Shown here piece by piece: positions 6,901 to 36,700 of a stretch of 64,000 nt of DNA (the stretch's first letter is position 1; the number at the start of each line of letters is the position of its first letter). The position numbers were made by a program, and so were the translations under genes. The stretch comes from Antedon mediterranea (lineage: Eukaryota > Echinodermata > Crinoidea > Comatulida > Antedonidae), in assembly GCF_964355755.1 (NCBI RefSeq), contig NC_092670.1, positions 20,521,201 through 20,585,200 on the forward strand, read 5' to 3'. Below the pieces are notes generated by a model, which did no database searches, was not told the origin of the DNA, and worked only from the letters and a program-made list of their open reading frames with translations.

Positions 6901-9900
6901 TTTTACTCAACCTGATCCACCCATGTAGCAATAACATAGTAAATCATTTAATTGACTGTATTTTCTGTGTTGATAAGTACATATTTTTCTGCACCATATG
7001 TTTATGAAACATTAATGGTACTCAAGGTAAGTGTATATGATTTGAGTATAAAAATTGGACATATTCATAACTTATAATTAAATTAACATAATGCATAGAG
7101 ATATTATAGTGAACTATAATATCTCTATGCATAATGGTACTGCTTTTTCATTTGGTAAGCACTGATAGATGTATTATTTAGTCAAAGCATAGAAAATAAT
7201 AATAGGTATTTGTATAGCGCCAGTATCAACTAAACCGACGCTTGTATTAGATGCTTTTTAGGTTCTTTTTTAAAAGTAGCAATAGATGTTGATTTAGTAT
7301 TATGACGAGGTTAAAACATGGAAGAAAAAAAGCACTTCCATGGTTAAAGGATAAAAAATATCTAAATAAAATTATAATGTATTTATTATATTGTTCAATA
7401 ATTTTATATAAATCAATTTACAGAGAGTCAAAACAGTTTAGTGATATCATAATTTGCCTTTTCTATTAATTAATCTTTTAATTAATTAATAGCTGTATAA
7501 CAAGGAATGATATAACCATAATTAGTATTTAATTATATTATGTGTATATTATTTGACATTGACAGTTTTTAATTACAGACTACAAGGTCAAGCTAATTGA
7601 AATAACCCTTATGGTTATCAAGTGCTCTATTGTATTTCACAACTCATTATTCTTTAGCAATATTGTAACACAATTCTGATTTTTATCAGAATGGTTTTTT
7701 TTATTACAGGCCTTTTTGGTTAAGATTTTTGTATACCAAATCCTGGAAATTACTGTATGTTGTTTGTAAGTTTTTAGTAACTTGGTAGCTTGCAAAGATG
7801 ATTACAGAAGCAAGTGAAAATTGTGTGTAGTGCTACAGATTATAGTACTTTTGTTTTTTGAAATTTAAATAACTACTATTGTAATCAAACTTGTTATTTG
7901 TAGGGTATGAGTGATTTGGCAGAGAAGAAAAACAAGGGTTTAACACGAATGGAATCTGAAGTCCAGGAAGTAGGGTGAGCATGAATCACATTTATATTAT
8001 ATATATCCAAAGGCAAATTACTGAAAAAATGACAATGCTGTGGGTATCAGTGGCCGGATCCCAATGGAGATACAAAAAAAAAGTGAAAAGCTAAATTAAA
8101 ACGATAAAGTAAAACAGCCAGAACAGTTAGTAGAGCTTTCAGGCAACACTAGCCCTTCATCACTAGCCCTTCATCACTAGCCCTTCATCACTAGCCCTTC
8201 AACACTAGCCCTTCAACACTAGCCCTTCAACACTAGCCCTTCATCACTAGCCCTTCATCACTAGCCCTTCATCACTAGCCCTTCAACACTAGCCCTTCAA
8301 CACTAGCCCTTCATCACTAGCCCTTCAACACCAGCCCTTCAACACCAGCCCTTCAACACTAGCCTTTCATCACTAGCCCTTCAACACTAGCCCTTCATCA
8401 CTAGCCCTTCAACACTAGCCCTTCAACACTAGCCCTTCATCACTAGCCCTTCATCACTAGCCCTTCAACACTAGCCCTTCATCACTAGCCCTTCAACACT
8501 AGCCCTTCAACACTAGCCCTTCAACACTAGCCCTTCATCACTAGCCCACACTAGCCCTTCATCACTAGCCCTTCATCACTAGCCCTTTATCACTAGCCCT
8601 TCATCACTAGCCCTTCATCACTAGCCCTTCAACACTAGCCCTTCAACACTAGCCCTTCATCACTAGCCCTTCATCACTAGCCCTTCATCACTAGCCCTTC
8701 ATCACTAGCCCTTCAACACTAGCCCTTCATCACTAGCCCTTCATCACTAGCCCTTCATCACTAGCCCTTCATCACTAGCCCTTCATCACTAGCCCTTCAT
8801 CACTAGCCCTTCATCACTAGCCCTTCATCACTAGCCCTTCAACACTAGCCCTTCATCACTAGCCCTTCATCACTAGCCCTTCATCACTAGCCCTTCAACA
8901 CTAGCCCTTCAACACTAGCCCTTCAACACTAGCCCTTCATCACTAGCCCTTCATCACTAGCCCTTCATCACTAGCCCTTCATCACTAGCCCTTCATCACT
9001 AGCCCTTCAACACTAGCCCTTCATCACTAGCCCTTCATCACTAGCCCTTCATCACTAGCCCTTCATCACTAGCCCTTCATCACTAGCCCTTCATCACTAG
9101 CCCTTCATCACTAGCCCTTCATCACTAGCCCTTCATCACTAGCCCTTCATCACTAGCCCTTCATCACTAGCCCTTCAACACTAGCCCTTCAACACTAGCC
9201 CTTCAACACTAGCTCTTCAACACTAGCCCTTCAACACTAGCCCTTCAACACTAGCCCTTCATCACTAGCCCTTCATCACTAGCCCTTCAACACTAGCCCT
9301 TCAACACTAGCCCTTCAACACTAGCCCTTCAACACTAGCCCTTCAACACTAGCCCTTCAACACTAGCCCTTCAACACTAGCCCTTCAACACTAGCCCTTC
9401 AACACTAGCCCTTCATCACTAGCCCTTCATCACTAGCTTTTCATCACTAGCCCTTCATCACTAGCCCTTCATCACTAGCCCTTCATCACTAGCCCTTCAT
9501 CACTAGCCCTTCATCACTAGCCCTTCATCACTAGCCCTTCATCACTAGCCCTTCATCACTAGCCCTTCATCACTAGCCCTTCATCACTAGCCCTTCATCA
9601 CTAGCCCTTCATCACTAGCCCTTCATCACTAGCCCTTCATCACCAGCCCTTCATCACCAGCCCTTCATCACCAGCCCTTCATCACCAGCCCTTCATCACC
9701 AGCCCTTCATCACCAGCCCTTTATCACCAGCCCTTTATCACTAGCCCTTCATCACTAGCCCTTCATCACTAGCCCTTCATCACTAGCCCTTCATCACTAG
9801 CCCTTCATCACTAGCCCTTCAACACTAGCCCTTCATCAGTGCAAGTTATAGTTTATAAACACTGTATATTAATATAACATAAATTGATATTATTTGTTGC

Positions 9901-12900
9901 CAAAATGCTAGCAAAGATATAATGGTGAGACATCACCAAACTTAATATATATTGTTAATGTTGTCTACTGAACCACTTTAGAAATCAACAGCTTTAGCAC
10001 TGAAAGTGTCATTCAGTATAAAGATAAAATAATTATATAGTAATATTCAATTCTTCAGTTGTATTATCCTTTTATGGACCAACATATTAAATATCATGCC
10101 TTGTGTCACTCACTGCATGTTTCGCTCAGTTTCTGATGGCTTATCTGATTATATTGTTTGTTAATAGACACAAAAGCTGGCTGGACAACTTAGAAAAACC
10201 ACAACTAGATTACAGTGATATATTTTCGTCGGATGTTGGACAGCTTCCTTGCGTAGAAGTTTGGCAAATTGAGAATTTTGTTCCGATAGAAGTAGAAGAA
10301 AGTAAGTTTAATAATCATTTTATTTCCCATGACAAATCACTTTACAAATCATAATTCTTGGTAGTGACTTGATGGCCTTCAAATAGAGTTTTGGTTTGCA
10401 CTGGACACCAAGAACATCTTCAATCTATAAACACTGACAGACTTTTGCTGGCAACTGATTGTTTGTTTGTTTTTGTGATTGATTGTAAAATTGTTTTTTT
10501 TTTTAGTTTATATGTAGTCACTCGAGCAAATGATACTTTGTTGTTTTGTTTGTATACATATGTTGATTTTGGTCGAAATAAATTTTAAATTGAACTGGTA
10601 CTATTAAATATTTTACACATTTTATTTCAGCTCTACATGGTAAATTCTATGAAGCCGACTGCTATATTGTCTTAAATGTAAGTCTTAAAAAAATATTTTT
10701 ACTGCTCTATAGTTATTTGGTTTTGCCAAACCTCACATACTAAACATTGTGCTAATTTTCTTTTAAACGACACTCCAGTGGCCGTATCCACAAATTTAGT
10801 TATTTTCCTTAAATACAAATTATTTAAATAAGAATTTCACTTCACAAGTGGTATTCATTTGAATGATTAACTTGACTATTATTAATTCATTCATTTCCTT
10901 TATTTCGGATAGTAAATCGACATACAAAGCATACAAAAAACAAGGAGAGAAAACATTTCACCAGGAAATTAACAATATAAGCATCCTCACTAGCCTATAA
11001 TCATTATACACCTTCAAAAATATATTCATAAAATCAATTTCTTTTACTAGACTACTCTCGATGATAGTGAAAACCTTTTTTGGCAAATTTATTATTGGAT
11101 TGGAAGCGAAGCAACAGTAAGTAGTATTATTATATACTTTTATTTAAAAAAACAATGTAGTGATATTATAACTTGTGGGCAATGGCCAGATTGCATGTAA
11201 CCCTTTAATACAAGCTCTGAAAGATTAAAAATACACCAATATTTAAAAGACATGAAAAGATATAATATGAAAAAATACAATAGGATTAGGCACTAAGCAT
11301 GTAGGTAAAATACTTTTTTAACTTAATTTAATGCTATGATATACCATTAAATAATGTACTCATATTTTGTTTGCGTATTACATTTTGATTTCATTTTATT
11401 ATTTATGTGTTTGTTTAGCTTGACAAAAAAGCAAGTTCGGCAATCCATGCCGTTAACCTGCGTAACTTGTTGGGAGCTCAGACTAGGACAATCCGTGAGG
11501 AGATGGGTGATGAGAGCGAGGAATTTATGGAGTTGTTTGGGGACGTGGCGTACATTGAAGGTGGAACGTTGAGTGGGTTCTATACAGTTGAGGACATCTC
11601 GTTTACTGTGAGGCTCTACAGAGCGTCTGGTACACAGAATATTCATTTAGAACCTGTGAGTATTGTGTAAATTCATAGATTTTCTTACCCGGTGGATTGG
11701 TTCACAAAATATATATGTATCAGGGGGATTACCACCTATCGGATAGGACAATGATTCATTTTCTATTGGTAATCCTTGGCCACGTGTGCCTAAAGACATC
11801 AAATAAAGCACAATTACAGGTTTTAAAAACTAAAAAGTATGTACTTTGCTAATAAAATAATAAAAAAATATTTTTGCTTTAGGTACCAGTGGACAAATCT
11901 TCACTTGACCCTAGGTATACCTACTTACTGGACAACAGACTAAGCATTATGATATGGTATGGTGACCAGTCCAAATCATTGACCAGGTCAAAAGCGAGGT
12001 ATGTTCATCACATGTTCAAATACTGCACAGAACCAATATTTACTGCAGTAACTTAATGTTGCCTTGAATGTAGAATATTGAAAAACAAATTTAAATGTAT
12101 AATATATATGTTTATATATTTGAATGTATGATAAATCCAAAGGCAAATTACTGAAAAAATGAATGTGTATATGGAGATACAAATAAAATACAGTAAGCAA
12201 AAAGTTAAATCAAAACAATAAAGTAAAACAAAGTAGAGTTTTAGGAATAACACCAATTGTTCTTATTTATATGTATTATTAGATTGATGGCAGAAAAGAT
12301 AAACAAAATGGAGAGAAAAAATAATGCTAATATACTGATGATGACACAAGGCTCAGAAATAAATGAATTCTGGGAAATTCTTGGTGGCTTCGATATCGAT
12401 TTTAAACCAACTGTAAGTTGCACCTTAAACTTGTTTTCTAAATATGCTGTCTTTTCTAAATATTCTGTATACTCGATTTTTATTGCACTTATAGTATAAA
12501 TGAAATGTTATATTCTATGCTGTTGAAAATCGAGATGGAATAGATTTAAATGAGACTACCCGTGTTAAGTCATATTAAAATAGTGTTTTGTTTTTCCCCT
12601 AGCCTTGTGTAGAAGACTTCACACCAATGAAACCAAAGCTGTACCAAGTTGGCCTTGGTATGGGGTACCTGGAACTCCCACAAGGTAAGTTTGAAAGAGT
12701 CTTTAATCCTGAGTTTTCTTTAGTACCAACTGTACTCTATATAAAGTTCTGTCTACACTATCAAACTTTATGTGATAAACAAATGTGTTTCATATCACCA
12801 AATTTGGGCATATCACTACCATATTTGGGTATATCACAATTTATTTGTCAAACTAGTTTGTTAGTGTAGACAGAGCTTTAGGCCAGCCTACAAATTCAGT

Positions 12901-15900
12901 TTTCTATGTGTCATTCTGTCTGAAAAAAAAAACATGCAATTAAAGATGGTATGTACTAAATTCTTAAATCTGAAGTAAAACACTTTGTTTTTATATTTTC
13001 AGTTGAGCTACCAAAGAACAAGTTGAAACAATCCTGTTTAGATACTAAGCACGTTTATATCCTGGATTGTGGAGCTGATATATTTATTTGGTAAGTTTTC
13101 AACAACAATACTGGAGTGAAGCAAACATTTATTTTCCAGTAAACTAAAGTTACTGCAGTATTATAAAGATTACCATGTCTCTTTCCAAAGTAGACTATTA
13201 TTGCTTTTGTTCATTTTTAGGATTGGTAGAAAGTCAAGTCGTCTTGTCAGAGCTGCTGCCCTCAAACTTGCGCAGGAGTTATGCAGTATGATAATAAGGC
13301 CGTCCGTTGCTATTGTTGTTAGAGTTCTTGAAGGGTAAGTGTTAGTGTGCGCCCCTCAGACACCAATACTCCTCCCTACCAACCCTCACCCATCTAAACA
13401 CCAGTTTACTTTATAATTTCTTTTAGAATTCTAAACTTGGTATTCTCACCCTGTTGTAATTTTCTTTTCTATATACATTTTCTTAATGCTTGATACTAAA
13501 TATAACAGGATCTTCTTTCTGAGAGCAATAGGCTAAAGCTCTGTCTACACTATCAAACTTTATGTGACAACAAAATTTGATGTGCCCATATATGGACATG
13601 ATGATGTCATATCACTACCATATTTAAGCATATCACTACCATATTTAGTCGCATCACATTGATAGTGTAGAAAGAGATTTGGAGAGTATCACCAATGCTA
13701 AACATAATACAATAAATCCTTATGGTATACCCAACAGGGTGTCGCCTAAGGGTGTCGCCAAGTGAGGGAGTGGTTCTACTGTATATTCCAGACAGGATGA
13801 TGCCCACAAAACAATTGTTTGCTCCCAAAAATGTTATATGGAGAAGGCTGTAAGAAAGAATCTTAAGAGAAGATGCTATGTTGGTGTCAATGTAGGCTTG
13901 TGAACCTGCACAGTATCCATCATCTTGTAGACAAAAATTATCGAAAATAAATGTTTACCTCCCAGATACGAACCATATGTTTTCAAGCAACATTTTGAAG
14001 TATGGGATGAAATACTGGCGGTCGACTATACAAAGACTGCCGAAGCCATTTTCAAATCAATGGCGTACGACATGTGGTAAGATGACGAGGCCAGTCAGTA
14101 CCATATGTGTACTAATTAACTGCGTGCCTTTGTCATAGTCCTTACAACTCACAAAAGCGTGGAAACAATGCATGAAAAGTTATTGCGAAAATTCATTTTT
14201 AACTTCGCATGCTAAAAGACAATGTTTTGTACCAATTTAGATTAAACAATTAATAGTAACCCATAGATATACAATATGAAATGTTTTTTAAAGTATTTCT
14301 AGTTTATTACTCATGAATTAAAACATTTTTACATAAATTTGTAGTATAAAAAATTTGCTCAGCAAAGTTGTTTGGCTGTTTTCGTTTTGATTTAGGTTTT
14401 TTTTCACTAATTTGCCTTTGGATTAAGTAAAAATATAGTGAATATAGCTGACAGTATTCCAAGTAAATAGTCATACTTGGACTCACTATGGAGTTGCCAG
14501 GATTCATCTGATTTATCTGTCGCTTCATGCTCTGGGAAAACCATTTCTTTTATTTTGCTATATAAAAAAATGTACAAAAAGCAGCAAAAGCTGAAAGAAT
14601 TGTATTTACATGATATAAAAATATATAAAAATGTAAAAGTATAACAAATTTGGGCAGCACACACACAGAAAAAAAATACAATATTATAGCAATAAAAAAA
14701 AAACATAAAAAATGCCATTAAAATTACGGATGATTGTGAGAACCTACATTACACATAATCACGTATTATGAATTACTTACTGATTTTGGTTGAAATTTAT
14801 CTGATGTGTTTATTTTATTACTTTTGTTAATATAACAATTTTTATAATATAAAGGTTTTTAATAATTTTATAACTATATTTTGTGTGGTTGAATTTTTTC
14901 CCCCTAAATAGTAAAATGTTATACTGCAATATCAACAATTGTTATATTTCAATGCTGTTTGTATAATATTTATTAATAGATTTTACAGTAAGAAAGATTA
15001 CATGATTTTTATAGGATTCTTTCCTATTAGATTAGAAGAATTATACACACTTCCATCAGTCACGTATACTCCCTCCAACCTTATCAGACTAAATGAAGGT
15101 TATTTAAATGATTCTCTATACTGATAGGTTTCGAACCCTAACTTTATTTTTCACAACCTGAAACACAACTAACTAACACATTTTCAATCCATCAATAACT
15201 AGTTAATTCAAATAATTATTGCATCTTGTAGTAAATTAGACTCATATTTCTTTGTAAACAAATATGACAGCTAATAATATTTTTCTATCAGCCCACTAAT
15301 TCCCTAACATTTTTGTGTACAATACTTGAAAAACAAAACAAAAATTGGACAAATTAACATATTATCACCTTTTTCTCAAACTTTTGTTTAATGTGATTTA
15401 TTTTTTTCTCTAGCACTGAGAGCCAAATCTTCAGGGCAAAATTCCAAGGCTGGGATAACGTTCTCGGAGTAGACTACACAAAAAAAGTAGAAGGAGCTAC
15501 TCGTCAAATTCGTAAGGTGAGCCGTAGTATGTGTGCTCTTGTTAAGCCAAGATACAGCAGCGGTACATATATAATATTTCTCAACTTGAAACAGTATATA
15601 CAATACAATGTTTTGTTAACATAGATTGTGTCTTTTTTTTTTCAGGATGATTCAGAGTTTAAGACAGATCTGTCTGCGCTGTTTATGAACCGACAGCCAT
15701 CAATGACAAATACGGAATGTGTAAGTTGTTTGTATGTAGTAACAATAACGTACCTGAAATACCTAACAGTGAATGTTAATAAATAGATACTATTCATAAT
15801 AATTAATTTTTTATTTAGGAACAATTGGCAGATGAGTGGAATGCTGACTTGGATGTCATGGAATCATTTGTTTTGGAGAATAAGAAGTTTGTCCGTTTGC

Positions 15901-18900
15901 CTGAGAATGAATTGGGTAATATGTTGTTTTGAATCCTAAAGGCCAACTTTACTGAGAACCTTATTTTGACAACGACGATGTACATATGATTTCAGAAATA
16001 TTGTGAGATTTACGATTTTGATGTGCGTGCTTGCTGTACATCTGTGACGTCAAGTGTGCTTAGCAAAATCTACCTCATGAGTAATAATATGGTTCTTGAT
16101 ATTAAAGTTTCTTTTAATTCCTTGTTCGTTTTCTCATGTTTTAAGTCACTATGAATCTTGCTGCATATAAAGTGTGAGGCAGATATATGTTGAATGCACT
16201 ACTACTCAACAATAACCTTATTTTTGTATTTGTACAGGTCATTTCTACAGTGGTGATTGCTATGTTTTCCTTTGTCGATATTGGGTTCCAAAAGAAGTTG
16301 AGGAGAAACCCGACGTTGAAGGCGGGGACAAAACAGATGATGATGAAGACGAAGAGGACTCGCAGGAGGATGAGATCGCGTACACCGTGTATTTTTGGCA
16401 GGGTAGAGATTCAAGCAACATGGGGTGGCTTACGTTTACGTTCAGCTTACAGAAGAAATTTGAATCACTGTTTGGAGAGAAGCTTGAAGTGGTTAAGCTG
16501 TGCCAGGTAATGCTTACATCCCACTGTGTTTTCATATTATAAACTATTGTTTCGATTGATATATGTAGCGTGATATATATGTTCATTGTCTTCCAATATC
16601 CTGATACCCTGTTAATCAAATCAGGTATATACATATATATGTCGCTATCCAGTCGAGAACTATACCATGAAAGCCCCAGTGGTCTAATGGTTAGGACATC
16701 TGCATATCAAGCAGAAGGTCCGGGTTCGAATCTTGGTTGGGGCGACTTTTTCTCATTCTCACAGATTTCCTCATCTTATTGTTTCAAATTAATTAATTAA
16801 ATTTCAGTATATCACCGGGCGGTTTAGAATTAATGTTCTATGCCTAATATGTTTATATATATATATATCATTTACTGTTGACAACCATTTACATAATGTA
16901 CAATAATCCATTCGGCTTACCGTACATATATTGCAATTACCATGGAGAGTGGGGTTTATTAAGCTGATTATTCTTTATTATTAATACTCCTACTTTTTAT
17001 TTTCCACTCTCACAATACAATGAGCTTTTTTAGTCGGAATTGGCATGATAAAAGGTTTGATTATTATTGTTAAATTTCAGCAACAAGAGAATCTAAAGTT
17101 CTTATCACACTTCAAATATAAGTTTATCATCCACCGAGGCAAGAGGAAGGCTGTACCAATCAAAGGAGAAGAACTTAACCCCAAGTTCTACCATGTTCGA
17201 GCAAATGGTGGATCATTGTTCACTCGCTGTGTTCAGGTTCATCCAACGTCTAAATGGCTTAATTCAGAATTTTGGTAAGTACATGATAAGTATATCCATA
17301 AGTAAGTTACGTACAGCAAACATGTATTACACACACCAGGAGGCACACCATAAGAACACCTGTGTTGAGTTTTCTAGGTGGTGTGGAAGGGTATAATATA
17401 TCTTTCACTATATATAGTGTATCTATAATATTACATATTTTAATACTTAGAAAACAATAATTTCATTGCAGTTACTGCAGGCATATTCAAATGTTTACAA
17501 GAATTCTGATTTTAAATAATCCTAATACTTTTTTCAGCTATATCCTGATGGTACCTTTTAACAGTGAAGACATGAAGGGAATTGTTTACACATGGATAGG
17601 GGATACGTGTGATGGAGAGGTGTCGCGCATGGCCGAGGAAATGGCCTATGACATGTTTGGTGTTAGTACATTTGATTAATTCAGACTTAAGTTCTGTCTA
17701 ATACACTATCAAACTAATTTGACAGAAGAAGTGTAATGTGCCTAAATATGGTAGTGATATACCTAAATATGGTAGTGATATACCTAAATATGGTAGAAAT
17801 ATGGTAGTGATATGACATCATCATCATATATGGGAACATAACATTTTTTTGTCACATAAAGTTTGATAGTGTAGACAGATAGTAACAAACTATTGCTGTG
17901 TAGAGGCCCACACCAAAGAAAAGAGGGTTAATGAAGAAATACAGTAGAACCTCTGGGACACCTCTATTTATGGGACACCTCTATTTATGGGACACCCCAA
18001 TTAAGGACACACTTTGCCATAAAACAAACAAGGGGAAATATATATTTGAACACTATGACTATTAAGGAATTGGGTCCCCTGAAGGTGTCCCCATAATAGA
18101 CATTTTACTGTATATTAGAGCCCAAACTTTTAAAATGTGAAATTGCTTATTTTTAAAAGAAATATTTTCTACATGTAGGAACATTACAGTCACCAGCTGT
18201 TAACAGAGGGAGAAGAGCCAGAGAATTTCTGGTGGGTTGCCCTCGGTGGCAAGCGACCTTACGACACCGATACTGACTACATGGAGCATGTACGTCTATT
18301 CCGCTGCTCTAATGATAAAGGATTCTTTACTGTATCTGAGAAGTGCTCAGATTTCTGCCAGGTAAATAACTATATTTGACTATTGGCTACCGGCCATCAT
18401 TTCATTCATTTATTTGACCAAAAAAACCCAATAAAAACAGGTCAGGAAAAACAAAAGCTACCCAGGACACTGTGACTCAACGAGTAAGTAATTCCTAATG
18501 ATATTAATTGTTTATTGATATCAATTTTTTTTTGGTAGGATGATCTTGCAGATGATGATGTTATGATTCTGGATACAGGTCATGAGGTGTACCAATGGGT
18601 CGGACCACTCTGCAGTGACACAGAAGTTAAACTGGCATTCAAAAGTGCTCAGGTAATGATTAGTACACTATCAAACTTTATGTGAACAAAAATATGTTAT
18701 GTGTCCATATATGGACATGATGATGTAATAATCACTACCATATTTGGGCATATCACTACCATATTTGTTCACATTACTTTTTTTTTTAACATAGCATGTA
18801 TAATATGAATATACATATAATGTAAATGGGTTTTTGTTTTAGGTCTACATCCAGCACTTACGGAACAAACAACCTGACGCTCCCCGAAAACTAGCAGTCA

Positions 18901-20267: not shown

Positions 20268-22592
20268 TTAATTACTGTATACAGGTCGCAAGTTCACTTT
20301 CCAAACATGAAGAGCATTATCATAAAATGAACAGGAAGCAATCATTTCATTTGACCCTTCCCAGCAGGCCTTGTCAGCCATATTTTCTTTAAGGTCAATC
20401 TCAGATATTGATTTCTCATCAACATGTTCATTTTTAGGAGTTTCTTTTGAAGTTGAATCGGCTTCTATATGATGTACACTTGAATCTTGATTTTGTAATG
20501 AAATCTCTGCAACACGATACCAATCCACGCCATAGGCTAAAGATTCGTGTTTTTCATATGAAGCGATGATTGGCTGAGGACATCCATCTGAAACAAAAGA
20601 AATGTATTGTTGACATACGTTTACTGTAAAGGTTCTAACAATACATTCTGCACTCTTTTAGATATAATTACTGATGGAGACTAGACTTGCCTGATAATGA
20701 GCAATTCAAGATGTGAAAACCATTATGCATACAGGCAGCAAGTAGTACCTCTCCATTAGTTGGATGCCATTTAAGCCTCCATACTCCGCCTCCTACATTT
20801 ATCTCCGATAGAGGGCTCCTCATCTTTCTTGTATCCCATAATAAGATTGTCTCATCATAGCTATTAAAGAAACAATGCAGTAATTATAATTTGCAGCAAC
20901 ACACATAATGTGCCACAGTTTTTACTTTGTAAATGCTTCGTTACCAAATAACTGAATATACAGACTTCTGATTGGTCATTTAATTATAATTTATTCTTCC
21001 TCACCTTCCTGTTGCTATGATATTTTCTTTGTGTATATTGCTATGGATACTACAAACACCCATAGAATGGCTTTTACTGACAAACGTTGGCATTTCACAT
21101 GATGTTCGGACATCCCAACCTTTTAGTCGGCAATCATCACCACCTGAAAAGCAAAGATTCATTTTGGCGTTCAACATTCAGATGTTTATCGCAGACATGT
21201 ACTAGATTTATATAACATTTTGAAATTGATTAGAAAAATAGAGATCATTCTATACCTGTATAAATAATACTAGGTTGCCAGTAGTTAAAAGCTGCTATCC
21301 ATGCTTCAAAACCATGAGCTTTCCACTGATTGACCTGTGTTAACGATCGGTCAAAGGTCACTTTGAATGTAGTGATCATTCCTTTTGAATCACTGGTAAC
21401 AATATGAGGCTCTGAGCTGAATAGTAAAGTTAAATAACACATTTATTTTTCTATTTAACAAGCAATCATTTCTTACTGTATACAAATTGATTGGATTGAA
21501 AAGTAAAATTGCAAATATCAGAGTTTACATATATTTTAATTGAATAAATTGAATAATGAGATACCCTTCTTTATTTTGTGTTTACTTACTTCTGATACTT
21601 AGCATTAGACCAATCTAATGACAATCCTAATCTGTCATCTCCAATTAAACTTGAACATAATTCATTAATGACCTGAAAAATTAGTTTGAATCGGCTATGA
21701 ATACAGTATATAAAATCACAAAGTTACTTATAATATAAAAAAATACAAAGAATTTGGATACTACGGTACCTTATTGTCTAGTTGAAAGAGCTGTAATTTG
21801 CCATCAGCGTTCACAAGAGCCAACTCAGAAGGTCTGTCTGATGAGTTTGGATTCCTAAATTGAAAATAATTAGGATTAATATATTGATTAAAGCAAATCC
21901 TGCCAGTTACGTAAAAGTAACAGTTTTAACTTGTATTTATATAATTTATATTATAAGAGACAAAGAGTTTATTTATATAATTTATATTATAACTTAAGAG
22001 ACAAAGAGTTTGCGCTGCTGCTGCACACATATACATGTGGGGTATTATTAAAATGAACAGAATTGTATTAGGAAGGTTTTTAACTAAATTTTGAAAATTA
22101 ACCGTTTTCTTGGTTCCAATATGGGGACAAAGTGTTTAAAATCCGTACTTTTATCACATATCTGTTTGTTGATTTTGGGTATAGTATATTTGTTACAACT
22201 ATGATATATATAACCATTTCATATCCAAAATTGCTGCCATATCTTGTCGCTGCGTTTCTTGTAATTTATTTTCATCACAATGGAATAATAGCAACCGTCC
22301 AAGTCTCTTCTTTGGTATATCACTGGTAACATCCTGTGGAACAAAAATAATGATATTGTTATTTATTAGTTTTGGCTAAGACTTTTGTTACACAATATTT
22401 TTGCCATTTGTCAATTGACCATTTACTCACATTTGGATCAACCCCGTCTGAAGTTGCTAGCTGATATGTTCCAATTGCAAGAACATTGTGGTGCGAAGGT
22501 GATGGACAGAATTCTGCAGAGTCTGCACTATACTCTGTGTTAAATATGTGTAAGGTTTCGGGATGTGATGCTGATGTTACTTGTGCAGCCAT
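20268..22592 (-). CDS. DPH7: Diphthine methyltransferase (WD-repeat, WDR85)
   Basis: Removes the methyl ester from methylated diphthine on elongation factor 2, the step before the final amidation of diphthamide. Exons in transcript order: 22592-22431, 22333-22215, 21854-21770, 21672-21590, 21416-21256, 21143-21005, 20860-20691, 20587-20268. They total 1239 bp and 412 residues. Recognisable blocks: an N-terminal [16 protein letters not shown]-like (AAILDMKW), the family signature [41 protein letters not shown] with GVWRLKWHP, and the C-terminal [11 protein letters not shown] and [12 protein letters not shown]. The start was set at the ATG before AAQVTSAS; an in-frame ATG at 22700 would add a basic, hydrophobic 36-residue extension unlike the family. 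The fourth-to-third-last residues of the repeat region are joined over a GC-AG intron (20690-20588). The donor at 22214 (GTTATA) is weak. Tail to tail with FLII and head to head with DRC3. Confidence 0.95.
20588..20690 (-). other. GC-AG intron of DPH7
   Basis: On the coding strand the junction reads CAG then GCAAGT, the classic context of the minor GC donor, and ends TTTCAG. Joining phase 1 to phase 1 gives a continuous WD-repeat reading frame. No usable GT donor lies nearby in the right frame. Confidence 0.85.
21935..22010. repeat. Short tandem duplication in DPH7 intron 2
   Basis: ATTTATATAATTTATATTAT plus AAGAGACAAAGAGTTT occurs twice in succession. Confidence 0.85.
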
Positions 22593-23557
22593 TAGAACCA
22601 CAATTTTCTTGTTCTTTTTAAATTTTTTAATGTTATACCTCAGACCTAAACAAAAACAGATATTAAATACGATTAAATCTAGGCCGATCCTGCCAATCAA
22701 CTAGTCAAATCCCCAGGTCTAATAAATGTACCATGGTCGTTAGCATCCCTTATATAGTAGGTCCAAGCCTACCTATAGGTCAGCCAGGAGTCGGCATGGG
22801 AAGGCCAGGCCAGCCTACTAATAGCTAGCTTGATCCACACGTGGACTAAAATGAATAGGCCTAGCATAAATAGTTGTGTGTTTGAGTGACTATGGTAACA
22901 ACAAAGTAGAAAGCAATACTGCAAATACAACTGATAGTAAGTCCTAAACGTATTAATAACTTTATATACACTTATAACATAAAAGAAAATCTTAAAAAGT
23001 AGACACACGAAGTAAACAAAAGAAGGCAAGAAAATCAAAATAAACAACAGCGCCACCAAGTTCAGTGAAGTATGATGGGATACTCTGCTTAACAACGATA
23101 CACAAAAAAGTTAGCACTATCATATTTCTAAACAAAATTACTTTAAAAAGTACTAACAAGTTTTTATTGAATAAAAATAGCTAATTTTGTTGTAGCTCTA
23201 ACTAGAGATCTAAGAGACTAGCCTAATATTCAGGCCTTATATAGTTAGGACTAGGCCTAGGCTTAGCTAGCTAGGCTAGGCCTTATTATATTATAGCTAG
23301 CTAGGCCTAGGCCGACCGAGTAAATCCACCCCTACAATTCAGGTGGGTGTATGAATGAGTGGACAGGTGGAGTCTGATTGGCCCTCTCTGTCCTGTCTAG
23401 CCCAAGCCTAGTATAGGGGCCTGCCTATCCATTGTACTGTGTGTCTAGAATTGGATACTGTATTATTCATCGAAAAATCAAATGCCTACTTTTACTTTTT
23501 TCTTACATTATTTATTTAGCAATCTTTAACACAGAGAGAGAGTGTATAAAACAAAAC
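22593..23557. promoter_or_regulatory. Probable shared DPH7/DRC3 promoter region
   Basis: Divergent genes with 965 bp between start codons. An inverted CCAAT box (CTGATTGGCC) lies at 23374-23383. GTGACTATGGTAAC at 22886-22899 is one change from a palindromic RFX X-box, apt for a ciliary gene such as DRC3. The rest is rich in CTAG and AGGCCT words (22740-22820, 23210-23320), probably repeat-derived. Confidence 0.45.
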
Positions 23558-26500
23558 ATGAGTCGTCTGTATGATACAGTTGAGCCGTCAGTGATTGAGG
23601 AGGATATGTTACAGAAAGCAGTAGAAGAACAAGGACCGAAAGAAGAAGCTGGCAAAATAGCAAAATCTGAAGGGATTGATTTTGGTGACGTTCTTCAATT
23701 AAGACTAGACTTCAAAAGTCAGTTGCAAACATCTTTTTTTTTTCTCTCTCAAAATCACATTATTTATGAATATTTCATCCAAAAAACTCTAATAACTTAA
23801 ATAAATTCGCATCATATATAACATTTCTAAGAGCTTAAATATATAGAATACTGATTGTTTAACAAACATTCAAATGTTTTTCTTTTATAGATATTCTTAA
23901 AATTGATAATTTGTGGCAGTTTACAAGCCTTGTCAAGTTACAATTAGATAACAACATTATTGAACGAATCGAGGGCCTTGATGCATTGGTCAATTTGGTG
24001 TGGTTAGGTAAGATATAATACTGATACGCCACCGCTAAAGGCCAACCCAGTAAAATCTCAATATATACAACGATGCCCTACGAATGAAAAGGCCCGAAAG
24101 AAAATTAAACATGGTTAAAAACTACACCCAACACTATCTCAAGACGACTCGTCTCATCGGGATTCAACTCAGCACTGACGAGTCAAGACATTCAGCAGGC
24201 CTCGTCGTATGATGCTGTCTGAGTTGAAATTTAGAAAACTTATATTGAGATTTTACTAGGTTAGCCTTAAAGGTCTTTTTAAAAACTTATTTAAGTCCAT
24301 CAGCCATACATCCACTCTATTTAGGTCTTTATGGGACAAAGTTTATTTATAAGTTCGACATTCACTGACCATTAAAAGTTAATTTGTTCTTTTAAAATCT
24401 CTTCTAGATTTGTCATTTAACAATATTGAAATCATCGAAGGGTTATACAAGCTAGGGAAACTTGAGGACCTGACATTATACAACAACAGGATAGCAGCAC
24501 TGGAGAACATGGCAAGCCTGACAAACCTACATGTGTTCTCAGTTGGCAACAACAAGCTCTCTAGCCTGGAAAATGTATGTATAATAGATAGATTTAATTT
24601 GATATTATTAATTGTATTAGCTAATGCAGTATGTTATTGGATATTACCTGTATTTGTTTCTACAGTCAAGTCATGTGTTACATATATTTAATTTTATATG
24701 TTATTTCAATTTATTCCATTAAGAAAGTTAACATTAACAAATTCAAATAACTCACTACATTTCATGAGATCAATGTGTAAATTCTGTACATTTTTATTTC
24801 GCAGCTTGTTTACCTGAGAAGGTTTCGAAATCTTCAGACATTAAATCTCAATGGGAATGCCTTTTGCGATGATGATAACTACAAGCCGTTTGTTGTCGCG
24901 CATATTCCATCACTGGTGTATTTAGATTTTAGGCTAATTGATGGCAACACAGTAAGTTTGCATATTTTTGTTTCCTCACACCACACATTACAACATAGCC
25001 CACAGTACAAGCTGACAGTACAACCCAATAGTGATGGAAACTTCTTATTTGGAGAATGAGTATTATCCTATGTGTAAACTGTAATTGAAGCTTAGTTTGT
25101 GGCTAGCTGCTTTGGTCATGAGTAATCCAGACCCAAAATGTGTACTCCCATTTCTTCAAGCCCAAGGTACAAGCCTGGTGACAATGTGGGTCAAGGAATT
25201 GGAGCATATCATGCAAGCTGTGTAACTGCTCGCTAACTAATTTTGTTTTTTTTACTAGAGAGAAGCTGCAGTAGAAAAGTATAGATATGCCATTGAAGAG
25301 CTGGTTGCAGATGAGACGGCAGCAGAGCTGAAAGAGAAAGGCAGGAAGCAACAACAAGAAGAATATGCCAGGCAGAAGGTAACCACACTAATGTAAATAA
25401 GCAATAGTCTATGCTACTGCCTAACACTAACAAGGCAGTTCTAGGCCCACAACAATGTCTCTACTTTCACAAGCTGCTGCCAAACATGGCAGGCTTAGGC
25501 CCACAACTCTTTATACCATTCACCCCAATTACTTAAATCTTTTAAAATCATTACTTTTTGTTGCAGGCTGCTTATGTGGAGAATCTGAATGGACCTTACC
25601 TATTTGACAGTATGTTCACAGACGACCCTGAAGCAGTGAATCTTGCAGCCTTACCAGGAGTTGATGAGTTACTTCTTTCATATCCTTTTAATTATCAGTT
25701 ATAACTTTTTTTAAATGATCCTAATTCAACAGCTACATTATTTGTAATTGCACCTTTGTAAAACTTGATACCCCATGTGGATACTGTAGATGGGTGCATG
25801 AGCAAACATTTAGATTAATTTACTGCAGTAATAGAACTATTAGTATCTTACTTAGTACTTCAGTTTCAAATATGACCCTCTTCAGTGGCGTAATGGCTAT
25901 GAGTGCTCACTGGCTAACAAATGGGCCCATGAGCTTACAGGGGCCCCTGAGCAGAGCCCAGAGAAAATAACAGGCGTTAAAATAGGCCTCCAGTGTTACA
26001 GGACCACTTAGGGGTTCCGAAACAAGGGCCTAGGCCTCTGTGTTACGCCACTGACCCTCTTGTGTTAAATTAACATTGATACCATGGAGCTATAAAATTA
26101 ATTTTATAGCTCCATGTTGATACCATAGGTATAGGTGTATCATCCTTAATAAGACTTACATATAAAGAAAAAATGGTGGTGATCTGTCAGCAGGTGTTTG
26201 AGTTCGGTCTAAAGGAGTTTGACAGACGAGAACATGATGTCCAAGAGTTCTACGCTTGCATTCAAGAAGCAAAGGATGAAAACAAAAAAGATGCCATCAA
26301 TGAAATAAAGAAGTTTAACCAATACAGAAAGAAGGTACTGCATTATCACTGTTGTCAATCATCATCACTATCATTATCTCCATCATTAATATTGTAATCA
26401 TCAATCATACCCACATTACTTTGAGTTTATAACTAAAGCCTTGTCTACACTATCAAATTTTATGTGACAAAAAAAATGTAATGTGATAGTGTCATACTAT

Positions 26501-27800
26501 TACCACATTTAGGCACGTCACACTTTTTTCAGTGTAGACAGAGCCTAATAGATTGTACTAATATTCATTATTTTTATATTACATAGATGTTTGCAGAGTT
26601 TAGTCAGATTAGTGACCCCAATGTATTGAAAGGTCGTGTAGATGAATACAAGGAGGAAGTAGATGCATTGTTGGACAAACTGATGGGCCTGGAGATGCAA
26701 ATTGTTGACCAACTTGAGGTAAGGCTTAAGTATGATTCTGAAAAAGATACTTAAACTTGTACTGAGTGCTTAATCGTGTTTAATGATTTAAACAGAATAA
26801 TTTCAAGATATTGTTTATTTTCGTTGCAGGATACTATCAAAGAATTTGAGAGAAACATGGCAGATTTCGTTGCAACATTTGTAGAGAATGTACAGGGACT
26901 ATATCCTTTAAAATATATATTATATAATCTGCATCATAATAATTTAAGCATGTCTTAAGCTCTGTCTATTAATCAGATATGAATGTACAGCTCTGACTAC
27001 AGTATAAAAAAAAATGTGATGTGCCCAAATATGGTAGTGATATAACATCATCATGTCCATTATGAGCACATCAAATTTAGTTGTCACATAAAGTTTGATA
27101 GTGTAGACAGAGCTTTACAAATAACTGTGCTCACATGTATTTCTTTAACTATCTCGCACGATATCACAGATACGTGATTTAGAAAACATTCACCATGAGC
27201 GGCTGTTGGAGACCGCCATCGCTACGTTGGAAAAGTATATGAAAAATGAACTTGATGACGATCTCCCTGAGGATCTTAAAATGGTATACTTGAAGTTCTA
27301 TTTTTCTAAAAAACTTCTCTTGAAACAGTGTTAGCTAAACGGATTAATTAGAATCCCGATTAGAATCCAGTTGACACTTTTCTAAAGTTCTGTCTTAACA
27401 AAATGTGATGTGCCATATATGAACATGATGTCATATCACTACCATATTTGGGCACATCACAAAAAATAATTTGACAGTTTAGACAGAGCTTTAGGTTGTT
27501 TCAAAATAATGAATACAGGAATACAGTACATTATCATTTTTCTTTTATCCATAGTTATTTGTTGACAAAGACACAATTTCAAACGCTGTTAGCGCATCTC
27601 ACGACGTGCACATGTTGAAGATTGACAACAGGGAGGACGACATTATACAGAGAGCAAACGGCTGGATGGCAAGTCTAATAGAAAGGATCCATAACGAGGA
27701 AGAAGTGAAGCGTAACAGAGATCGTGTGAAAGAAATCGGTAACTTTATTGATCATCTTGGAGATGAGCTAGAATTATTGGACTTGCAGGGAGCTTTGTAA
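23558..27800 (+). CDS. DRC3: Dynein regulatory complex subunit 3 (LRRC48)
   Basis: Structural subunit of the nexin-dynein regulatory complex of motile cilia and flagella. Exons: 23558-23717, 23891-24007, 24408-24574, 24805-24951, 25259-25378, 25567-25679, 26160-26334, 26587-26718, 26830-26900, 27160-27283, 27555-27800. These total 1572 bp and 523 residues, the same length as human DRC3. The N-terminus reads EEDMLQKAVEEQGPKEEA. Leucine-rich repeats follow (NLWQFTSLVKLQLDNNII, LVWLDLSFNNIE, LEDLTLYNNRI). After them come YLRRFRNLQTLNLNGN, the linker NGPYLFDSMF and coiled coil to the end (LKIDNRED, VKEIGNFIDHL). Introns 6 and 9 are AT-AC, U12-type; see their entries. Candidate poly(A) signal AATAAA at 27922. 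Promoter probably shared with DPH7. Confidence 0.96.
24039..24267. mobile_element. 229-bp MITE, TAA target duplication
   Basis: AGGCCAACCCAGTAAAATCT and its inverse (AGGCTAACCTAGTAAAATCT) form the ends, with TAA on both sides (24036-24038 and 24268-24270), as in PIF/Harbinger elements. A related end lies near 15938. DRC3 intron 2. Confidence 0.75.
25883..26053. mobile_element. 171-bp hAT-like MITE
   Basis: Ends CAGTGGCGTAA and TTACGCCACTG. An exact 8-bp duplication ACCCTCTT at 25875-25882 and 26054-26061 is the hAT hallmark. It sits inside the U12 intron 6 of DRC3. Confidence 0.92.
26083..26116. repeat. Perfect 34-bp palindrome
   Basis: CATGGAGCTATAAAATT followed at once by its exact inverse, 43 bp before the AC acceptor of DRC3 intron 6. 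Confidence 0.92.
26437..26545. mobile_element. TWA-TSD MITE family, copy 8 (short)
   Basis: AGCCTTGTCTACACTATCAA to GTGTAGACAGAGCC with TAA on both sides (26434-26436, 26546-26548). DRC3 intron 7. Confidence 0.85.
26901..27159 (+). other. U12-type AT-AC intron (DRC3 intron 9)
   Basis: Donor ATATCCTTTA, branch site TTCTTTAAC at 27141-27149 (one change from TTCCTTAAC), and AC acceptor at 27158-27159, about 11 nt after the branch adenosine. The joined peptide ENVQGLISQIRDLENIHHE aligns gap-free with human ENVQSLMAQCRDLENHHHE. A Harbinger-like MITE (26958-27114) sits inside. Confidence 0.92.
26958..27114. mobile_element. TWA-TSD MITE family, copy 9
   Basis: Flanked by TTA on both sides. The left part carries an extra partial end (AGCTCTGTCTATTAATC then GCTCTGACTACAG). 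DRC3 intron 9. Confidence 0.85.
27386..27490. mobile_element. TWA-TSD MITE family, copy 10 (short)
   Basis: AGTTCTGTCTTAAC to TTTAGACAGAGCT, flanked by TAA and TTA. DRC3 intron 10. Confidence 0.8.
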
Positions 27801-28158: not shown

Positions 28159-31100
28159 TTAATTAGCATAAAGTACATCCTTAAGTTGCTGTAATATTGT
28201 TGTTGCAACCCTGAGCTGCATCTCAGTGCAGTCTTGGAGGATAACTCCAACCTGTAGGGAGTAATTGCTTTTTATTTGACTATTTTTTCACTCAATAACA
28301 CTGACCAAAGAAGAATTATTTAGACTTGGCACAGGGCCAGACTATGCAGGTGTCCAATCATTGTTGTTTGTTACCTGCTGACAGCTGTTACTCTTGACTC
28401 ATGTTGCAGGTGTTTTATTCTAATGCATCTACTATTTCCAAAAACCGATTATGGACATTTTTGTAACGTTTCTTTCCCAAAATAACTTTTAATGTTTGTT
28501 AGATTCTTGTCATACTGCAATTTTCTTAATTTTATGCGTCGTCTCTGTTACCAGGTGTACAAACAATGTGGCAGCTGCTACTCTTGCTTGTAGATCCATG
28601 TGATCAATTCGATGACCCCATTCAACTTCACCCCATTTAGAAATCTGAATACAAAATACAATAATCTTTTAATGAAATATGTATGTACTAAGTCCCCTAT
28701 TCATTTCTGAACATAGGGCAAATGAGCTGTTAGGAGCTTATTTTACTAAGCCTCAGCAGGAAGACTGAAATTACAAATTGTAATTTCACTCTTCCCTGGC
28801 CTCAGCATTATGTGGTAGGGTAGCCTCCCTAGTATTTTCAACCAGGTACTCATTTACAGCCGAGTTGTCGGGAATTGAACCAACATCAAGTGTCCTATCA
28901 TATTTACTTGTAATTTTACACTATTGTCCTTTGTGACGCAAAACAAAATTGTACATTTTTAATATTGTCCATTATTCAGACTGACCTCACATTATGTTTG
29001 TTTTCATGCACATGTGGCTCAAATTTCCATAGCACATTATATTATGGCCATAAGCTTTGTCAAACATAACCAAGAGGCTAGGGCAGCTGTATGTTGTACA
29101 TAACCACGAAGCTAGGCCAGCTGTATGTTTTCCTCAATGGCTAAGCATGTCTGGGTATCATTACTGAGAGAGGATAATGTAATTGTACCCAGGCGGTCAA
29201 GCCACTGCTCTAACCCAGCCTTAAATCCCGCAAGAAAGTGTGAAAATCCCTAGGGAACCAAGACCAGGAAGCATGCCCTTTTCCAGCTGTAGTTCTCATC
29301 ACACAGGAAACAGCGCTATAACATTCAAAACCATGAATAACTCTTTGGATGTGTTGTCCTGTGTCCAAACACTGAAAGGGACTTTATCGGCACGTTTGGC
29401 TGACATTTGTTTGGTAGAATTTTTTAAACATAAAGGTAATTTTTTTCATGCTATTGTCAGTCATACAAGTCCGTCAACTTTAATTGATTTAGAATGAAAG
29501 AATATTCACTTATATACTTTATACGTGACTTGATTTCTTCATAAGGTAACATTAACAAACAAGCATGTAGATGATATTGAATCTTTGAATAAGTTATTTT
29601 CCATAAATTGTGAAGATGTTTTCTCTTGTGATAAGATATTAGTTGGGTGTGGTTACTTAGGTCTGTTTAATTTATAATTGTTTTAAATATCCGTCAACAT
29701 AATTTATTATTTAATTTCCATTGCCAATTAAACCTTTTAATTCAAACTCCATGTTCTTAAGAGGAGGTACTTGCATTTAGGAAACTGTGTCATTAGTAAT
29801 TACATATGATTTTTTTCAGCCACTCAGCCGACTTACTTGGAATTCTTCTTCTAACCTGGACAGCGCCATTGCTCGTTCAACGTGAATATGTCTATCCATA
29901 AGAGCAAATGCAACAACTATAGATTTCAACGATTGTACTGCGCTTTCATAGCCTGGCGAAACATAAATATTCACAGTTAAACAGTGTATACACCCTTTCT
30001 TAAAAAAATTGTAGAATACCTTAAGCTCTGTCTACACTACCAAACTTTATGTGACAAAAACATGTGATGTGCCCATATATGGACATGATAACATCATATC
30101 GCTACTATATTTGGGCACACTTTTTTTGTCAAACTAGTTTTATAGTGTAGACAGAGGTTTAGATTTAAAATAAGACGAGTAGACTAGTTTTATTATTAAA
30201 AGCTGTACACGTCTCCAGGTGTGTAGTACTTGAGTAGTTTAACTATATTTGATATCAAGTGCAAACCATAGGTTATGCCAAAATACGCTACCGAATAATG
30301 CCCACTCGTTGTGCGTCAACAAATGCTGTTTCAGCTTGGCTCGTGTTTCGTCTGGTACTGCAGGTGGCATGATAGATTGTGTAGATGTGATATCAGTCTC
30401 GTATCGAGAGTTGAACCAGTCTAACAGCGGGTCCCATTCTCTTGTCTGAAGTTCAACAAGGTCAACCGGTAATTCTTGTCTGTAACTAAATTAATATTGA
30501 TTAATCTTATATTGTTATCATCATAATTTTCAGGATTGTTAACATTCATCATCTTAATCACCATACCATCACCATTATCAATAATCATCTTCACTCTAAT
30601 TGTTATCATTATCTGTCATCATGGTTATACAGAATCATTCCCAGAATTACTATCATACAGTATCTTCTATCAATTTTCACATCATCAATTTTTCATACGC
30701 ATGAGCGAGTAACTTGCCAATTACAGGATGGATAAACTATTTTATAATTGATATTATAAACTAAGTCCCATTTTAGGCTTAGGGAGTAGAGTTGAAAGAG
30801 TTGTGAGTTACAACCCTGGCACTAGGTCAGGATTGAATGGAAGGCAAGTACGTTGACCACCCAAGCTACAGCTCCACCACTATCAATTGTCATCACCATA
30901 ATTGTACTATCTTCATCATTACATTATTAACTGTGAATAATTGCATACCACACTGTGTCTGTGTCAAGAAAATGAAGTATTGATGTTATCACTTGTTCTT
31001 TATTTCTACCAGTTGGATTATCAAGGGCAGTGTTGCATAAAGTTGTCTGGAAAGAAAAATAGCAATATCAATAGCAAAAATCATTACTATTATTATTAAA

Positions 31101-31657
31101 TTTAATTATATAAATATTATTACATAAATACAATAAAATATACAAAATATATATTTTACCATCTGCATAGTGTGTTGTTTTATAATGTCTGTCTGTTTGT
31201 CCCACTCCGTGCATACAGCAATAGCCAAGGCTTCACTTGGAACCTGGAAGAGCTTTCCAGATGGTGTCTTTAACTTGCGTTGGTCAAGATTAATCTCAAA
31301 CACACCTTCCGACTCAGTAATGCTCACTGATTTGTAAATTTTCTTCCTTTCTAAACGTTTTTATAAGAAGTTATTAGAAAGAATTTGTTTTATCCATCTT
31401 AAATTCTATTTTATATAATTGTAATTATCCTAAGCTATGTTTGCGTTACTGTGTAATCCTATTCCTTCGTTTCCAGGCAGTTTCCACTCACAAAAACACA
31501 TGTGGTTACACGTCTGGGCTAAGCCTAACAATTGTTTCTCTCAATAGAACTAAACTATCTTACCTCTAAAACCCCTTTTTAGCATGTTTGCAGCAGGAAT
31601 TCTAGATTTTAAAAGCGTTGAAGACAAACATTGATTTGCCAATGTTTTAAATGCCAT
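28159..31657 (-). CDS. ATPAF2: ATP synthase mitochondrial F1 assembly factor 2 (ATP12)
   Basis: Mitochondrial matrix chaperone that binds the free alpha subunit during F1-ATPase assembly. Exons in transcript order: 31657-31564, 31350-31160, 31046-30949, 30485-30292, 29952-29837, 28644-28552, 28251-28159, giving 879 bp and 292 residues (human 289). The N-terminus (MAFKTLANQCLSSTLLKSR) is basic, Ser/Leu-rich and lacks acids, as a matrix-targeting peptide should be. Core motifs: EINLDQRKLKTPSGKLFQVP, SEALAIAVCTEWD, CNTALDNPTGRNKEQ, LHFLDTDTVCYR, REWDPLLDWFNSRY, MALSRLEEEFQ and SKWGEVEWGH. The AATAAA at about 28155-28160 on the coding strand overlaps the stop and could serve as poly(A) signal. 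Tail to tail with DRC3 (358 bp apart); head to head with GID4. Confidence 0.95.
28730..28920 (-). mobile_element. SINE-like fragment
   Basis: On the minus strand it contains a B-box-like GGTTCAATTCC followed by GTAAATGAGTACCTGG, wording common in tRNA-derived SINE bodies. It lies in ATPAF2 intron 5 (28645-29836), whose remaining 900 bp show no other supportable feature. Confidence 0.4.
30024..30158. mobile_element. TWA-TSD MITE family, copy 11
   Basis: AGCTCTGTCTACACTACCAA to GTGTAGACAGAGGT with TTA on both sides. ATPAF2 intron 4. Confidence 0.85.
30776..30882 (-). mobile_element. tRNA-derived SINE head
   Basis: The minus strand starts GGTGGAGCTGTAGCTTGGG with TGGTCAACG (A box) and has ATTCAATCC further on (weak B box). 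A related head lies at 36625-36685. ATPAF2 intron 3. Confidence 0.5.
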
Positions 31658-31724
31658 AATTTTAAAGGATTTAAATTAAGCCTACTAGGCCGCCTAAATC
31701 AGTTTGTTTACAAAAAAATTACGA

Positions 31725-33737: not shown

Positions 33738-36700
33738 ATGTCAAAAGATATGCCTGGACTAAAGTTGGACCCACCTCCGCCAATTAACTGTCAACAACCT
33801 GGTGTTGCTAAGTCTGTTTTATACAGCGGTTCCAAATTTAAAGGCCAACAAAAAAGCAAAGGCAGTTGCTATACAGTTGAAGTTGAACTTCAGGTTCGTC
33901 TTCTTGCTAGCTAGGCCAACAAGAGAGAGTGTGTCAATGTTTTGTGTGTGGGTTCCTGGTGGGTCCAGCCCTTTTGCACTGGTGTGGTGCCCATCCATCA
34001 GGCCTGCATCCATTACTTGTGAGAATTTCTAGGCCTACATATTTTGTTCTTTTTGTTATAGTTGTTTGAAATAGTCTTTAAGTAAGATATAAATTATAGG
34101 CCAAAGTAGCTACAGTACAGGGGCAATCTATTTTTATCCGAGAATAAAAAACCCACAAACCTCATCGTATCACATCCTCCTAAACTACATCACTATATTA
34201 TATACCGCTATGCAAACCACATGCTGGTCGAACAAGTTAGATTTAAATTTTATAAATATATAATGTAATTACTGTGAAATATGTGTATACTATGTGTAAG
34301 CCCATCAGGAATCAGTTATCTAATTTTGTTTTCTACAGCATGTAGATGAACAAAACTGTTACCTTTGTGGGTACCTTCGAATCAAAGGACTGACGGAGGA
34401 ATATCCCACACTTACTACCTTCTTTGATGGAGAGATCATAAGTGACAAACATCCGTTCCTGACACGCAAGTGGGATGCTGATGAAGACGTTGATAAAAAA
34501 CATTGGGTGTGTATCGGGAATTGAATAAAAATATCATAATTCAATTATAATACCTGTACTATCTAGTCGAAGAAATTATCTTCTGTTATCCTTTGTTTGT
34601 AAATCACTTATTGGAACGGTTGATTGTAGTAGTGTTCGTCAATTTGTAGTTATTAATGGCCGTCACCTTGATACACTCAAGTTCATTCATCACTATGCTC
34701 GAACCAATTGTCTTCATCATTCCGCTATTAACATATTCCCTAGGTTATGGGAAGAGTTACCGGAAATGATGAAAATGTCTTTAATTTTAGACAGTTTTCA
34801 AACATTTCTAAATTCACCTAAATCACATGTATTATATTGACTTTGTTGAATCGACTATAAGTATTTTATCCTTTTGTTTTATATTGACACTGTTGATTCG
34901 TCTATTTGTATTTTTTCTTGAATCCTTTATTTATTTTTATTAATTTGTATAATATAGTTTATTATATATCATAGTTGTTACTTTGGGAGTCTGGAACCTG
35001 AACTCTTGTTATAGTGATTAGGATCACTTTTAGGTTCCTGCCTACTCCCTTAGTTTCTGTGTCTTTGTATGTTTGTAACTGGTTTTTGGCAATAAATAAT
35101 AATAATAATTTATGAAAATTGACAATATAAATTAGCAGTAATAATTATTCAATTATTAATAGTTTAATTTTTTTTATTAGGGTCAGTTTCCATCATTTTT
35201 CAAGTTTGCAACCATCTTTAATTCGGATTCATTTAAATATGATCAACTTGAAAATGATGATTTTATCTACATGAGATGGAAGGTATGTACTACAACAAAT
35301 CTTGACGAGGCTTAGAATACTAAAACGAACCCTCTTAAAAGTCTTATTCATGTGAAATATTTAGTGATTATAAGAATGTCTGCAATTTGGCCTCACAGGT
35401 TAGCTGTAGTGTTAAAATACATATTTCCTCTTATCTGTTTCACATAATAAGGGTGTCGCCAATGAAGGGTGTCGCCAATGAAGGGTTCTACTGTATTTTT
35501 AATACAACATAATTTCAATAAGAATAAAAAAAACAAATCCTACTTTGTTCTTCGTAAGGAGCATTTCTTGGTGCCAGATCACAGGATTCGTGACATCAAT
35601 GGAGCATCTTTTGCTGGTTTTTATTATATCTGTTACCAGAAGTCAAAGGGCGCCATCGACGGATACTATTATCACAAAAGCTCAGAATGGTATGTTTTTA
35701 GGTTAAACAATTTCTTTTCTTTCGACTTCAATTTACTTCAACATTTTAAAATGTATGATTTTTATACAAAAAATGATTAAGGTGACATCTTCTGGACCCC
35801 CAATGTTTCCCCTAAATATAGGGGTTGGCCATAGTATTAAAACATAAAATTTTCCCCGGTTCCTTTAAACCAGAAAATGTCCCCTTAATAGGGGTTGGCC
35901 ATAGTAATAACAAATATATTTCCCCTTGTTCCTTTAAACCAAAAGGTATCCCTTTAATAGGGATTGGCCATAGTAATAACAAATATATTTCCCCTTAATC
36001 CTTTAAACCAAAAGGTGTCCCTTTAATAGGGATTGGCCATAGTAATAACAAATATATTTCCCCTTGTTCCTTTAAACCAAAAGGTGTCCCCTTAATAGGG
36101 ATTGGCCATAGTAATAACAAATATATTTCCCCTTGTTCCTTTAAACCAAAAGGTGTCCCCTTAATAGGGATTGGCCATAGTAATAACAAATATATTTCCC
36201 CTTGTTCCTTTAAACCAAAAGGTGTCCCTTTAATAGGGATTGGCCATAGTAATAACAAATATATTTCCCCTTGTTCCTTTAAACCAAAAGGTATCCCTTT
36301 AATAGGGATTGGCCATAGTAATAACAAATATATTTCCCCTTGTTCCTTTAAACCAAAAGGTGTCCCTTTAATAGGGATTGGCCATAGTAATAACAAATAT
36401 ATTTCCCCTTGTTCCTTTAAACCAAAAGGTGTCCCCTTAATAGGGATTGGCCATAGTAATAACAAATATATTTCCCCTTGTTCCTTTAAACCAAAAGGTG
36501 TCCTTTTAATAGGGTTGGGCATAGTAATATATTTCCCCTCGCTCCTTTAACCAGAAAGTGTCCCCTTAATGGGGGTTTCCCAAAGGAGGATTCTACTGTT
36601 ATGATCAATACGAACTTATTCTAGCCATTAAACCTAGGGATTGGAGGACAAGCATGTTAACCACCAAGCTACAGCTCCACTTGTTTTTATAACATTAATT

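Follow-up and report, generated by a model that had tools for sequence, protein, structure and literature searches.

Introns 6 and 9 of the gene for DRC3 (LRRC48), a subunit of the nexin-dynein regulatory complex (N-DRC) of motile cilia, are almost certainly genuine U12-type AT-AC introns, and DRC3 would thus need both spliceosomes. The assignment is based on the sequence of the two introns, on the exon junctions that they define, and on the presence in the genome of the minor-spliceosome snRNAs together with CENATAC and PDCD7. The other eight of the ten DRC3 introns are GT-AG. All positions given below refer to the window, by which we mean the whole stretch of 64 kb that was analysed.

DRC3 gene and protein

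Translation of the individual exons and joining at the predicted splice sites (Table 1) gives a DRC3 product of 523 residues, as many as in the DRC3 chain of PDB entry 8j07. In a phmmer search, the product matched axoneme chain 9fqr_Qv over its full length (E 6.3e-171) and chain 8j07_3 over query residues 5-518 (E 1.5e-169). Both are DRC3 chains from solved axonemes, the second one from the human respiratory doublet. The product and the 8j07 chain are identical at 267 of 512 aligned positions. LRR domains are present in the product, and the homology to DRC3 spans both the LRR domain and the C-terminal half; judged from its translation, the window encodes a complete DRC3. A genome-wide search showed this locus to be the sole full-length DRC3 copy. 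Outside the gene the search gave only distant LRR matches, and it revealed no second full-length DRC3 and no intron-free copy or retrocopy that could serve as a natural cDNA.

Table 1. Positions of the DRC3 coding exons, the two predicted U12-type introns and their splicing signals in the window.
Feature	Position	Strand	Description
DRC3 (LRRC48) coding span	23558-27800	+	11 exons, 523 aa
DRC3 exons 1-4	23558-23717, 23891-24007, 24408-24574, 24805-24951	+	
DRC3 exons 5-8	25259-25378, 25567-25679, 26160-26334, 26587-26718	+	
DRC3 exons 9-11	26830-26900, 27160-27283, 27555-27800	+	
Intron 6, predicted U12-type AT-AC	25680-26159	+	480 nt, phase 2, after residue 274 (codon TC/A, Ser)
Intron 6 U12 5' splice site ATATCCTTT	25680-25688	+	9/9 to consensus
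Intron 6 U12 branch site ATCCTTAAT	26142-26150	+	branch A 10 nt from intron end
Exons 7-9, between the AT-AC introns	26160-26900	+	378 coding nt; candidate 25680-27159 splicing would delete 126 residues in frame
Intron 9, predicted U12-type AT-AC	26901-27159	+	259 nt, phase 2, after residue 400 (codon CT/G, Leu)
Intron 9 U12 5' splice site ATATCCTTT	26901-26909	+	9/9 to consensus
Intron 9 U12 branch site TTCTTTAAC	27141-27149	+	branch A 11 nt from intron end

U12-type signals in introns 6 and 9

U12-type AT-AC introns are recognised by the 5' splice site ATATCCTT(T) and by a branch site TTCCTTRAY whose branch A lies ~10-13 nt from the 3' end. Introns 6 and 9, which are separated by 741 nt, both have such a donor and such a branch site, and both terminate in AC exactly at the exon junction. 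Each branch site matches the consensus at eight of nine positions (one mismatch). In the core of the U12 donor (positions 3-9), introns 6 and 9 agree with the consensus at all seven positions, compared with one to five of seven in the other eight introns of the gene.

Both strands of the 64 kb were scanned for U12 donors followed, at the proper spacing, by a branch site matching the consensus at eight or more of nine positions and by an AC end. The scan recovered only introns 6 and 9 and their own long-range cross-pairing, 25680-27159. Shuffling of the window yielded on average 0.3 AT-AC pairings; the highest number in any single shuffle was 5. The donor octamer alone (ATATCCTT/GTATCCTT) is not enriched in the window, being seen 6 times against 6.05 expected by shuffling, and the evidence therefore lies in the joint occurrence of four elements: donor, branch site, AC end and a junction that fits the exons exactly.

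Exon junctions and alternative splice sites

The junction across intron 6, where GVDELLLS joins YKEKMVVIC, aligns exactly to GVGELLETYKDKFVIIC of 8j07; the junction across intron 9, where ENVQGL joins ISQIRDLEN, aligns exactly to ENVQSLMAQCRDLEN. Both AT-AC junctions are free of gaps against the two DRC3 axoneme chains. For comparison with other splice sites, all frame-keeping GT/GC-AG, AT-AC and AT-AG pairs near the boundaries were considered, and the full protein resulting from each was scored against 8j07 DRC3. The AT-AC pair ranked first of 88 pairs for intron 6 and first of 83 pairs for intron 9, with an alignment score of 1391.5 versus 1382.5 (intron 6) and 1358.5 (intron 9) for the best GT-AG pairs. 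The decisive point is that the predicted U12 sites sit exactly at the junctions demanded by protein homology. The coordinates, donors, termini, branch sites and protein length given in a preliminary description of this gene were all confirmed by the translation and the scan, and its gap-free alignment across both junctions and 523-residue product were borne out by the comparison with 8j07 DRC3.

The AT-AC termini could in principle be an artefact of boundary choice, with ordinary GT-AG sites nearby being used instead. For intron 6, the GT-AG pair 25668-26153 does keep the frame and scores just 9 units lower, but its donor, GTTACTTCT, departs from the U2 consensus. With the best GT-AG pair at intron 9, the score drops by 33 units and seven residues are lost. 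Moreover, two exact ATATCCTTT donors and the U12 branch sites at the junctions would have to be coincidences. We consider the use of GT-AG sites highly improbable and rejected the alternative boundaries at both introns on account of their lower scores and poor donors. Use of the AG near 26192, an acceptor that the preliminary description had named as the case that would speak against AT-AC splicing, would delete YKEKMVVICQQ, which is aligned to YKDKFVIICVN.

Minor-spliceosome components

The genome (354 Mb, 18 contigs) was searched for the minor snRNAs, and matches were judged by the Rfam cut-offs. The preliminary description had suggested confirming the U11, U12, U4atac and U6atac genes, and all four were found above their cut-offs: U11 in two copies (88.6 and 82.9 bits), U12 (125.7 bits), U4atac (97.6 bits) and U6atac (136.6 bits, with a weak second copy at 33.7). 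Two minor-spliceosome proteins, CENATAC (CCDC84) and PDCD7, are also present; with the four snRNAs, they represent the minor spliceosome in this genome. Base pairing with the donor ATATCCTTT is possible for the U11 and U6atac of this genome, for U6atac at seven of eight positions. U12 can pair with the branch sites, leaving the branch A bulged, through seven Watson-Crick pairs plus one G-U pair in intron 9, and six plus one in intron 6.

An AT-AC intron may also be removed by the major spliceosome, and 85 such U2-type introns have been counted in human (PMC8280824). These introns are without the U12 signature, whereas both DRC3 introns have the full U12 donor and a properly spaced branch site, and the minor snRNAs are in the genome. 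It is extremely unlikely, in our view, that introns 6 and 9 are of the U2 type.

The two U11 copies (L001 and L002) are diverged and lie on different contigs (C5 and C8); they are identical over their first thirteen bases, a stretch that takes in the segment pairing with the 5' splice site. The genome matches fall on eleven contigs, C1 to C11, which may correspond to eleven chromosomes. By gene content the animal may be a deuterostome invertebrate, perhaps a feather star or another echinoderm; a comparison of mitochondrial COX1 gave no match.

Predicted dependence of DRC3 on minor splicing

With introns 6 and 9 taken as U12-type, the DRC3 pre-mRNA would be bound by U11 at ATATCCTTT and by U12 at the branch site, in each case through base pairing. 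U4atac/U6atac would join next, U6atac would take over the donor from U11, and the two introns would be cut out at AT and AC. The eight GT-AG introns would be left to the major spliceosome. Full-length DRC3 would require both spliceosomes, and CENATAC in particular. We propose the need for CENATAC from work in human cells, where AT-AN minor introns rely on this factor more than any other class does: its depletion affected 92% of A-type introns versus 24% of G-type introns (PMC8280824). A retained intron 6 is computed to bring a premature stop at residue 283, and a retained intron 9 at residue 420, such that the full protein would be lost if minor splicing failed. From the U12 class we infer that the predicted AT-AC junctions would be used and that DRC3 expression would depend on the minor spliceosome, with CENATAC probably taking part.

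In addition to normal removal of the two introns, the donor at 25680 might sometimes be joined to the acceptor at 27159, which would skip exons 7-9 and produce a DRC3 of 397 residues. Introns 6 and 9 are both in phase 2, no stop would be created by skipping the 378 nt, and the cross-pairing was among the results of the window scan. Nonetheless, a splice site is normally joined to one nearby, and of phase pairs drawn at random about a third would be equally compatible; we regard such skipping as very unlikely. It is very unlikely that the same-phase AT-AC pair forms a regulated unit, in which CENATAC activity would set the amount of full-length DRC3, or its ratio to the form without exons 7-9, and thereby tune ciliary beating.

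Comparison with known minor introns

The donor (ATATCCTT), the TTCCTTRAY-like branch site, the AC end and a bias away from phase 0 are all shared between the DRC3 introns and U12-type AT-AC (A-type) minor introns, and there is no difference in the mechanism; the host gene, DRC3, is unnamed in the papers searched. A search of article texts found no paper naming DRC3/LRRC48 as a minor-intron gene.

AT-AC introns had been described as a small minority of U12 introns, which is too low an estimate, given that about a quarter of the minor introns in human are AT-AC, the published shares being 24-26% (PMC8280824, PMC10639083). Both introns being of the U12-type AT-AC class in a single gene stands as originally claimed, but it is less striking than was supposed, as genes with multiple U12 introns are documented (PMC7367187, PMC2831892). 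We estimated how often such a gene would occur as follows. With the published density of ~0.3% minor introns and independence between introns, a gene with ten introns would contain two AT-AC minor introns with a probability of ~2.5e-5, which corresponds to about 0.5 such genes per 20,000, but the assumption of independence is known to be wrong from the clustering of U12 introns (PMC7367187). Such clustering in the same genes was seen in 21 of 21 genomes tested (PMC7367187), and in most mammals each of the SCN and CACNA1 genes carries two introns of the U12 type (PMC2831892). For these reasons, the two AT-AC introns in DRC3 are uncommon, yet of an already known kind. DRC3 is like the SCN and CACNA1 genes (PMC2831892) in having two minor introns, but it belongs to an unrelated family, and its two introns are 741 nt apart and both AT-AC.

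Minor splicing and cilia

Loss of ZCRB1 disturbs ciliogenesis, and minor-intron genes include ciliary genes (PMC13216214). DRC3 resembles the genes mis-spliced on ZCRB1 loss in having a ciliary function that would rely on minor splicing. The latter are primary-cilium, centrosome and IFT genes, whereas DRC3 is a motile-axoneme gene and is unmentioned in that study (PMC13216214). At the same threshold, no canonical U12 intron was found in the DRC4 (GAS family) locus and two NYD-SP28 (DRC1/DRC2-like) loci, 38 kb in total, by a scan restricted to canonical donors accompanied by strong branch sites, in stretches that may hold incomplete genes. Because these three other N-DRC loci are without a U12 intron in the scan, a wider programme of minor splicing for cilia, or for motile cilia, is not supported. 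With DRC3, there is now a motile-cilium gene whose expression is predicted to depend twice over on AT-AC minor splicing. Should the two introns prove ancient, the gene could be used as a simple reporter of how CENATAC functions, and it would be a candidate for connecting disease of the minor spliceosome with motile cilia. Gene-prediction programs that allow only GT-AG introns will mis-annotate DRC3 in such genomes.

Repeats and neighbouring genes

Much of the length of intron 9 is made up of a foldback element (26950-27122), MITE-like and present in high copy number, whose termini resemble AAGCTCTGTCTACACTA. The same element is found at 26434-26544, 27397-27493, 30018-30165 and some ten further sites in the window. 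A first look at the genome yielded 2299 candidates; 40 of these were scored, and they matched. Intron 6 contains a perfect 34-nt palindrome (CATGGAGCTATAAAATT/AATTTTATAGCTCCATG, 26083-26116), 25 nt upstream of the branch site, which may form a hairpin. A tandem array with a unit of roughly 69 nt, open on both strands, occupies 35995-36550; its plus-strand translation repeats a motif of 23 residues.

Judged by eye, the neighbouring genes resemble DPH7 (20268-22700, reverse strand), COQ9 (28160-31680, reverse strand) and FLII (about 3000-17000, forward strand). Just downstream of an exon resembling flightless-I (FLII) is a tRNA-like sequence (16673-16744; Rfam 57.5 bits), called as tRNA-Asp with the unusual anticodon ATC, which is either a gene or a tRNA-derived repeat. 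Human FLII and DRC3 both lie in 17p11.2, and the linkage of the two genes may therefore be old.
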